DNA of 64,000 bases, taken from NCBI GenBank assembly GCA_902610315.1, contig CACLVA010000001.1, positions 43,614 to 107,613 of the forward strand, read 5' to 3'. The DNA is from an uncultured Pelagibacteraceae bacterium. GTDB lineage: Bacteria > Pseudomonadota > Alphaproteobacteria > Pelagibacterales > Pelagibacteraceae. Under the pieces are notes generated by a model. It worked only from the letters and a program-made list of their open reading frames with translations, did no database searches and was not told where the DNA came from. Shown here in pieces: positions 27,141 through 28,709 of this stretch (its first letter is position 1; each line of letters opens with the position of its first letter). The position numbers were made by a program, and so were the translations under genes.

Positions 27141-27532
27141 TGATTGAACAAAGCGTTACATATTTATCTGCAATACTTTTAGGGATTATGCTTTTTTTTT
27201 CATTTATTGTTGCACCATCTACATTTAGATTTTTAAATGAAGAATATGCTAGAAAATTTATAAGGGGCATTTTTCCTATATATTACTTACTAAATCTTAG
27301 TATCAGCTTAATTGTCGTTTTATTGATCGCTTATTTAAGTGATTTTAGTCTTAAATTTTATTTAATGTTATCTATTTGTATTTTATTTTTTATCTCTAAT
27401 TTTTTTTTAATGCCATTAATAAATAAGTTTAAAGACAATAAGGAAGAAAAGAACTTCAAAGTATCACACTTTGTATCTGTGCTGATAAACTTGGTACAAA
27501 TGATATTTCTTATAATAATATTAATAAAATAA
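27140..27532 (+). CDS. DUF4149-like (TMEM205-like) membrane protein
   Basis: Four hydrophobic segments; LGIMLFFSFIVAPSTFRFL. Confidence 0.65.
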   Translation: MIEQSVTYLSAILLGIMLFFSFIVAPSTFRFLNEEYARKFIRGIFPIYYLLNLSISLIVVLLIAYLSDFSLKFYLMLSICILFFISNFFLMPLINKFKDNKEEKNFKVSHFVSVLINLVQMIFLIIILIK

Positions 27533-28008
27533 TGAAATATAATTTAGATAAAAGAATTTTTATAAAATTGCTTAGTATTACATTTTTTTCTTTTTTCTTA
27601 ATGCCATTTAAGTTTGCAAAGGCTGTTACAAAAAAAGTTATAAATGAAAATCTTACCAAAAAACAAAAGGAAATAATGTTTAATGAAGGTACGGAAAGGC
27701 CATTTACAAGTGATCTTTTGAATGAAAAAAGAGAAGGTTTTTATCATTGTGCAAACTGCGGTGCAAAATTGTTTGCATCCACTGCTAAGTTTGACAGTGG
27801 GACTGGTTGGCCATCTTTTACAGAAGCTTTGCCAGGTGCGTTTAAAACTAAAATTGATTACTCATTTGGAATGAAAAGAATTGAATATCATTGTGCAAAT
27901 TGTGGAGTTCATCATGGACATGTCTTTGCCGATGGTCCTAGTGAGACTGGAAAAAGATTTTGTAACAATGGTCTTTGCTTAATATTTAAACCATCAAGCA
28001 ACAATTAA
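27532..28008 (+). CDS. msrB: Peptide methionine-R-sulfoxide reductase, with N-terminal export signal
   Basis: CANCGAKLFASTAKFDSGTGWPSF, HCANCGVHHGHVF, RFCNN. Confidence 0.93.
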   Translation: MKYNLDKRIFIKLLSITFFSFFLMPFKFAKAVTKKVINENLTKKQKEIMFNEGTERPFTSDLLNEKREGFYHCANCGAKLFASTAKFDSGTGWPSFTEALPGAFKTKIDYSFGMKRIEYHCANCGVHHGHVFADGPSETGKRFCNNGLCLIFKPSSNN

Positions 28009-28009
28009 T

Positions 28010-28117
28010 CTATTTTTTTTTTCTTTTAAAACTACCTTTTCCTTTTTTAGGTTTGATAATTCTAGGTTTATATTTTTTTGTAAATAGGTCTCTTTTTAAA
28101 GGATTTTTCTTACTCAT
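28010..28117 (-). CDS. ArfA-like alternative ribosome-rescue factor, 35 aa (unlisted in ORF track)
   Basis: MSKKNPLKRDLFTKKYKPRIIKPKKGKGSFKRKKK*; YKPRIIKPKKGKGSFKRK aligns without gaps to E. coli ArfA FRQRVEKNKKGKGSYMRK (recalled sequence). Confidence 0.7.
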   Translation of the reverse strand: MSKKNPLKRDLFTKKYKPRIIKPKKGKGSFKRKKK

Positions 28118-28709
28118 TAATTATGTATCCATCCTTTTTACTTTGAATAAATGTGTCATCATTAAATGCATCTTTTATCTTTTTTCTTAATCTATAAATA
28201 TGCGTCTCAACTGTATGAGTTTCTAAATCCTCTCCGTATTTCCAAACTTTTTTCTGAAGCATATCAACCTTGACTGGTTTATTTTCATTTTTAAGAAATA
28301 TAATAGTATCAATTTCTCGTTCAGTCAGTTTAAGTTCATTATTAGTTTTTTTTAATATTCTTGAATTAATATCTAATATGTATTTGTTTATATTGATATT
28401 TGATTGAGCAGAGTAATTTTGTTGTATTAATCTCACGTTTAGTTGATCAATTAAATTAGAGATTTTTATTGGAAATTTTGTAATACAATAGACTTGTTTT
28501 TCATCAGTTTTGCTTTTCAATGAAGAAAAGTCTTTCTGATTTACAAGAATTATAGAATTCACTAAAAATTTTTTATCTTCACTGATTTTTTTAATCAAAT
28601 CTTTTTTTTCGGTGAAAGTATTGACGTCGTAATTAAAATAATCTTTGATTTCTATAAAAATTTTATCTAATTCTGGTATATTTAAAATATGCAACTTTTG
28701 CGAATGCAT
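28110..28709 (-). CDS. OmpR/PhoB-type winged-helix transcriptional regulator with degenerate receiver domain
   Basis: LTEREIDTIIFL...WKYGEDLETHTVETHIYRLRKKI...GYIINE; no obvious phospho-acceptor Asp in N-terminal half. Confidence 0.85.
   Translation of the reverse strand: MHSQKLHILNIPELDKIFIEIKDYFNYDVNTFTEKKDLIKKISEDKKFLVNSIILVNQKDFSSLKSKTDEKQVYCITKFPIKISNLIDQLNVRLIQQNYSAQSNININKYILDINSRILKKTNNELKLTEREIDTIIFLKNENKPVKVDMLQKKVWKYGEDLETHTVETHIYRLRKKIKDAFNDDTFIQSKKDGYIINE

Follow-up and report, generated by a model that had tools for sequence, protein, structure and literature searches.

Among the described ribosome-rescue factors, Escherichia coli ArfA (YhdL, PF03889) contacts RF2 through residues 15–31, places F25 in the V198/F217 pocket of RF2, which RF1 lacks, and occupies the empty mRNA channel with its KGKGS motif (PMC6299226). 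The protein remains active without the last 17–18 of its 72 residues and is inactive when cut to 40, only 46–48 residues are ordered in structures, and the A18T substitution abolishes activity; expression from a non-stop message is a form of regulation in E. coli and not a requirement of ArfA activity (PMC8012679). Francisella ArfT, a protein of about 40 amino acids, ends at a stop codon and has a basic tail (PMC6299226), and Bacillus BrfA is a small RF2-dependent rescue factor that enters the mRNA channel (PMC8012679). Within the same ecological system, the described protein closest to the one considered here is gp30 of the pelagiphage HTVC027P, which has been reported as an ArfA with expression in the course of infection (PMC12753301). 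When 15,259 genomes were surveyed with nucleotide profiles, arfA was recovered in none of 2,376 alphaproteobacteria (PMC11633108). We describe a 35-codon SAR11 gene whose product, judging from its sequence, is very likely a stripped-down ArfA. The family is known, and the host group and the minimal form are new: a cellular ArfA of SAR11 was previously unrecognised.

The analysed stretch of 64,000 nucleotides (the window) comes from a genome of 1.06 Mb (89% complete) whose closest relatives with names, Candidatus Pelagibacter and uncultured Pelagibacteraceae, place it in SAR11. At 28117–28010, its minus strand carries an open reading frame (ORF) of 35 codons followed by a TAG stop (translation, MSKKNPLKRDLFTKKYKPRIIKPKKGKGSFKRKKK*), exactly as an earlier sequence-only reading of this DNA had described. 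The ATG lies within the 3′ end of the gene directly upstream (28110–28709, minus strand), with which the ORF overlaps by 8 nt (ATGAGTAA; 28110–28117), and the two genes are also adjacent in loci L034–L046 and in more distant loci of genera g1 and g7. This conserved neighbour had been called a response regulator; the regulator part of that name stands, given an OmpR-type DNA-binding domain (PF00486, the only domain matched), but no receiver domain was found in Pfam. Translational coupling of the regulator and the arfA-like gene via the overlap is possible, and the pair would presumably be co-transcribed. On the other side, the TAG stands one base from the stop of the convergent gene msrB (27532–28008, plus strand), which is a neighbour in close relatives only and lies outside the system. 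A run of ten A directly precedes the TAG at the end of the ORF (AAAAAGAAAAAAAAAATAG; 28010–28030, minus strand); the run is common to some close relatives, is not conserved more widely and could favour slippage.

Conservation shows that this ORF is a real gene. Homologues of 35–52 codons are present across the family, in at least seven genera of Pelagibacteraceae and normally once per genome, and their frames are open. In loci L034–L047, mostly from single-cell SAR11 genomes, a frame of 34–63 codons with the same core lies behind the regulator gene and directly adjoins it in 13 cases. At greater divergence (regulator 36–57% identical), the ORF is usually still directly behind the regulator and msrB is no longer a neighbour; genus g7 keeps the same arrangement, and in genus g5 the arfA gene is found elsewhere, adjoining a photolyase gene. 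The synonymous bias among relatives was strong: over 30 aligned codons of the core, pN/pS was 0.07 for the 14 close relatives and 0.24 when all 45 rows of the codon alignment were included (a few of which are near-copies), whereas shifted and antisense readings of this DNA gave 0.99–1.42. Synonymous positions in the Gly, Lys and Ser codons of KKGKGS vary freely while the residues stay constant. K22, KKGKGS and R32 are invariant in 45 of 45 core rows, and position 30 is always F or Y. A chance ORF in AT-rich DNA might well look like this one in having only 35 codons, a lysine-rich product and DNA rich in A runs, but the low pN/pS, set against shifted-frame controls near or above 1, and the conservation in seven genera make this explanation scarcely credible. 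A second, weak match of the peptide in its own genome (G000:C5, a 223-aa frame, E 0.3) was dismissed as chance.

In Pfam, the window protein matched PF03889 (ArfA) and no other family, scoring 25.7 bits where the cut-off is 25.5; this margin of 0.2 bits is thin by itself, and orthologues scored up to 31.5 bits. With the conserved homologues, open frames and strong synonymous bias, this match contradicts each of the refuting outcomes named in the sequence-only reading. When the protein alone was compared with the PDB, the best six matches were all ArfA chains (E 0.03–0.1). We then built a profile (A1) on 22 Pelagibacteraceae proteins plus a single pelagiphage protein, leaving out gammaproteobacterial sequences; it matched six ArfA chains and nothing else among 177,635 PDB sequences (E 2.8e-6 to 8.5e-6). 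Its alignment to E. coli ArfA is gapless over residues 11–43, covering both the RF2-binding half and the channel tail. The sequence-only reading had pointed to a gap-free alignment that includes KKGKGS and the following aromatic-x-R-K, and both features are present in the window protein; its description of the protein as little more than a decoding-centre core fell short, since the RF2-binding half also aligns (N14, L20, F25, R28 and V29 of E. coli). From the alignment to E. coli residues 14–29, we place the putative RF2-binding half at NPLKRDLFTKKYKPRI (28058–28105, minus strand), in which Y16 aligns without gaps to F25 and is aromatic in all 45 rows (Y in 41, F in 4). The predicted mRNA-channel tail, KPKKGKGSFKRKKK (28013–28054, minus strand), contains the invariant residues K22, KKGKGS and R32. 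NCBIfam has no model matching the window protein, which would explain why the gene is unnamed. The ORF has no GGQ and is therefore not an ArfB, a short GGQ-domain protein of PF00472.

In an ungapped alignment over E. coli residues 12–44, the SAR11 protein thus shares with E. coli ArfA the residues N14, L20, F25 (as Tyr), R28, KKGKGS, the aromatic at position 39, R41 and K42. It differs in being encoded by 35 rather than 72 codons, in having an N terminus about nine residues shorter, in ending with a normal stop after the counterpart of residue 44, with neither the aggregation-prone C-terminal tail nor a hairpin before the stop, and in the placement of its gene behind a regulator gene. A further difference concerns A18, whose position is not conserved: it is Arg9 in the window protein and Lys in most relatives, most of which have Ala one residue earlier. 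A18 is, however, a functional residue of one species, and membership of PF03889 does not depend on it. A small basic peptide that binds RNA or the ribosome for some other job (for example, hibernation or assembly), with an ArfA-like motif acquired by descent or convergence, would likewise be short and lysine-rich; basic, low-complexity tails could converge, the gene is dispensable in some genomes and KGKGS is missing from a related protein of the DUF7230 type. Against such a role, which we regard as quite unlikely, KKGKGS is invariant, the RF2-binding positions are conserved and no other family was matched in Pfam (by the protein) or in the PDB (by the profile).

The genome also encodes the expected partners. 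It contains an alpha-type tmRNA (tag ANNKFALAA), SmpB, RF1 and RF2, and the RF2 pocket is recognizable in the segments GIHRLVR (V198 replaced by Ile) and HTSF (F217), whereas RF1 has Ala where RF2 has F217. The tryptophan of the RF2 GWG motif is also kept; it corresponds to W319, which we take to be an important position for an RF2 that partners ArfA. The parts for ArfA–RF2 rescue are therefore present. No ArfB-sized PF00472 protein was seen in 79 Pelagibacterales genomes, in which the matches to this family were two full-length factors (RF1 and RF2) or their fragments; the contrast that had been drawn with alphaproteobacteria that use ArfB is thus sharper than claimed. In the same genome, prfB keeps an in-frame CTT TGA programmed-frameshift site after AGGAG (L064, 237–330), and RF2 is therefore probably self-regulated through a +1 frameshift at the UGA stop within prfB.

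On these sequence comparisons, we consider it highly probable that the window protein is an RF2-recruiting ribosome-rescue factor, a minimal ArfA. On a ribosome that has reached the 3′ end of an mRNA without a stop codon and stalled there, the lysine-rich KKGKGSFKRKKK tail would enter the empty mRNA channel, and the N-terminal half (N5..L11...Y16..R19-I20) would add a strand to RF2 and hold it in the active form, after which the GGQ motif of RF2 would release the peptide by hydrolysis of peptidyl-tRNA. The protein would in this way act as a backup to tmRNA–SmpB in a group without ArfB. An ArfT-like or independently evolved factor, which would activate RF1 too or contact RF2 differently, is unlikely. 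Francisella ArfT is similar in size (40 aa), has a basic tail and does without E. coli-style regulation (PMC6299226), and the lack of conservation at the A18 position would suit such a factor; but ArfT works with both RF1 and RF2, lacks the F25 aromatic that is kept in every SAR11 row and has the tail KKGGSTNKK where the SAR11 protein has an intact KKGKGS. In addition, the profile matches E. coli ArfA over both halves, and RF1 of the window genome lacks the F25 pocket. BrfA differs in its N-terminal fold and distribution, is encoded by a terminator-truncated message and was unmatched by our profiles in the PDB. If the minimal-ArfA assignment is true, a backup for ribosome rescue is usually kept even in strongly streamlined genomes, and the SAR11 proteins would be among the smallest natural ArfA proteins, useful for defining the minimal working unit.

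The length of the window protein fits activity, because the limit for E. coli ArfA lies above 40 residues and the window protein reaches the equivalent of residue 44; the ordered region of E. coli ArfA runs 2–4 residues beyond this end. The message for the SAR11 factor, from a gene that follows the one for a DNA-binding regulator, would have an ordinary stop codon and be translated directly into a short protein. No terminator-like site or conserved stable hairpin was seen in or after the ORF, unlike in E. coli arfA or brfA, which makes trans-translation control through a non-stop message unlikely. A weak hairpin within the ORF (z −1.3) was rejected as a regulatory element because a close relative lacks it in its predicted fold. 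Given the conserved neighbouring regulator, the arfA-like gene may be under transcriptional control.

Matches to PF03889 at E ≤ 1 were obtained in 49 of 61 genomes of the same genus, many of them incomplete, although two of these matches (G040 and G043) are weak and lie in long frames. At E ≤ 0.01, profile A1 had matches in 305 of the 397 genomes searched from the order, of which 285 belong to the family of the window genome (f1) and 20 to family f2; the weak matches that were read from f2 and from genus g6 are of another type, described below. Where sequences of genera g1, g5, g7, g8 and g9 were read, the tail KKG[KR]G[SA] is kept. Across the class, PF03889 matched 10 of 385 genomes, eight above the cut-off; six further matches at this level look like scattered genuine ArfA-like frames, although some of them (G593 and G662) are possibly contamination. 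Such frames from other alphaproteobacteria (L083, L086 and L088–L091) have variant tails in some cases (KKGRKVY, KKGKASY and KKGKRAY). Among 14 control genomes, only E. coli was matched at E ≤ 0.001. If the SAR11 gene works as predicted, the negative survey result (PMC11633108) does not hold for a group that ranks among the most abundant bacteria on Earth. About one-fifth of f1 genomes have no ArfA, including some single-contig genomes that are ~99% complete, and ArfA is therefore dispensable. Several ~99% complete single-contig g1 genomes keep the regulator and an L,D-transpeptidase-like neighbour with no ArfA there.

Relatives of the protein also occur in viruses. HTVC027P gp30, deposited as a 'hypothetical protein', scores 20.2 bits with PF03889 against the cut-off of 25.5 and has the same core (NPVAKEVRTPKYKSQIIKPKKGRGSFKR); it is phage-encoded and, as in many viral copies, carries an N-terminal extension of about 22–28 residues that the window protein lacks. 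Its relatives were found at a minimum of 227 viral contig places, at least, with the core NPIAKEVRTPKYKxRVVKPKKGKGSFKR behind the extension. A tblastn search of the 35-aa peptide against phages gave no match, probably owing to the low-complexity filter, and these relatives were reached through gp30. In many marine viral contigs (L033, 15768–15944; L178–L257), the extension has the common form MPGKWDGxSR.... This abundance, together with the expression of the phage gene in infection (PMC12753301), could indicate a gene of phage origin with its main role in infection rather than in rescue of the cell's own ribosomes. We hold this to be very unlikely, as the cellular gene is a single copy under purifying selection and usually lies behind the same cellular regulator, in both g1 and g7 and down to a regulator identity of ~32%. 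On the minimal-ArfA reading, a rescue factor of the cell is connected with the many marine viruses in which the same protein is encoded.

The other type of small protein resembles DUF7230 (PF23876), a family of which we found no mention in the literature searched. Its N-terminal pattern, NPxAxxLxxxxFxxkV, is also found in Pelagibacteraceae ArfA, but the DUF7230 tail (KKxYSRKxK) lacks GKG, and the window protein had no match to this family up to E 10. A second profile (A3) was run on 63 genomes; the small proteins in it came from g6, f2, one g1 genome negative for ArfA and other alphaproteobacteria. In all 30 ArfA-positive f1 genomes the best match was the arfA locus itself, the sole other match (G126) being at chance level. 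Among 21 ArfA-negative g1 genomes, a separate ORF was matched in 13 (for example, MSKKRKKVKKKNPMAKLLSSPMLRNKIVKNKKKIYNRKKFKLGNE) and neither type was present in the remaining 8; the A3-type protein was also found in 2 of 2 g6 and 9 of 10 f2 genomes, which rules out the view that f2 lacks any homologue. The second-type loci are L157–L165, L167, L169, L170 and L173 in g1, L094–L096 and L099 in g6, and L097, L098 and L100–L103 in f2. The two types therefore do not co-occur in these 51 f1 genomes (30 ArfA-positive, 21 ArfA-negative; Fisher p 4e-7), an exclusivity of modest weight because one of the positives (G102) itself contributed to A3 and a tree of the neighbour protein indicates that the second type arose only ~2 times within g1, with ~3 independent losses.

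Similarity between the types extends over the N-terminal half. Profile–profile comparison of Pelagibacteraceae ArfA with the DUF7230 type gave 97% probability over the N-terminal 30 columns, and ArfA led the PDB matches of A3 (E 0.024); in that alignment a gap of three residues falls at GKG, with YxRKxK after it. A g6 member (MKRNPIAKALRTPKFKKKVIKDKKKYNRKKVKKYF) scored 27.0 bits, exactly the DUF7230 threshold, which other alphaproteobacterial members exceeded; the f2 member that was tested matched no Pfam family, and the DUF7230-like proteins scored below the PF03889 threshold. These relationships are suggestive of a function shared with ArfA. Tentatively, as a possibility that we would not yet favour, DUF7230 and the related alphaproteobacterial proteins may form a second branch of RF2-recruiting rescue factors that replaces ArfA in Pelagibacterales as the backup without ArfB. 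Members of this branch would combine an RF2-binding half like that of ArfA with a different tail: KKxYxRKxK where ArfA has KKGKGSYxRKxK or, in f2, a basic tail that diverges further. If this is true, trans-translation is backed up by one such factor in nearly every Pelagibacterales lineage, without ArfB, and DUF7230 gains a testable function. The second-type ORF of g1 adjoins cryptochrome/photolyase genes (L157–L165, L167, L169 and L170), and arfA of g5 lies directly downstream of a related photolyase gene (L084/L085), shared neighbours that hint at one ancestral position for both types.
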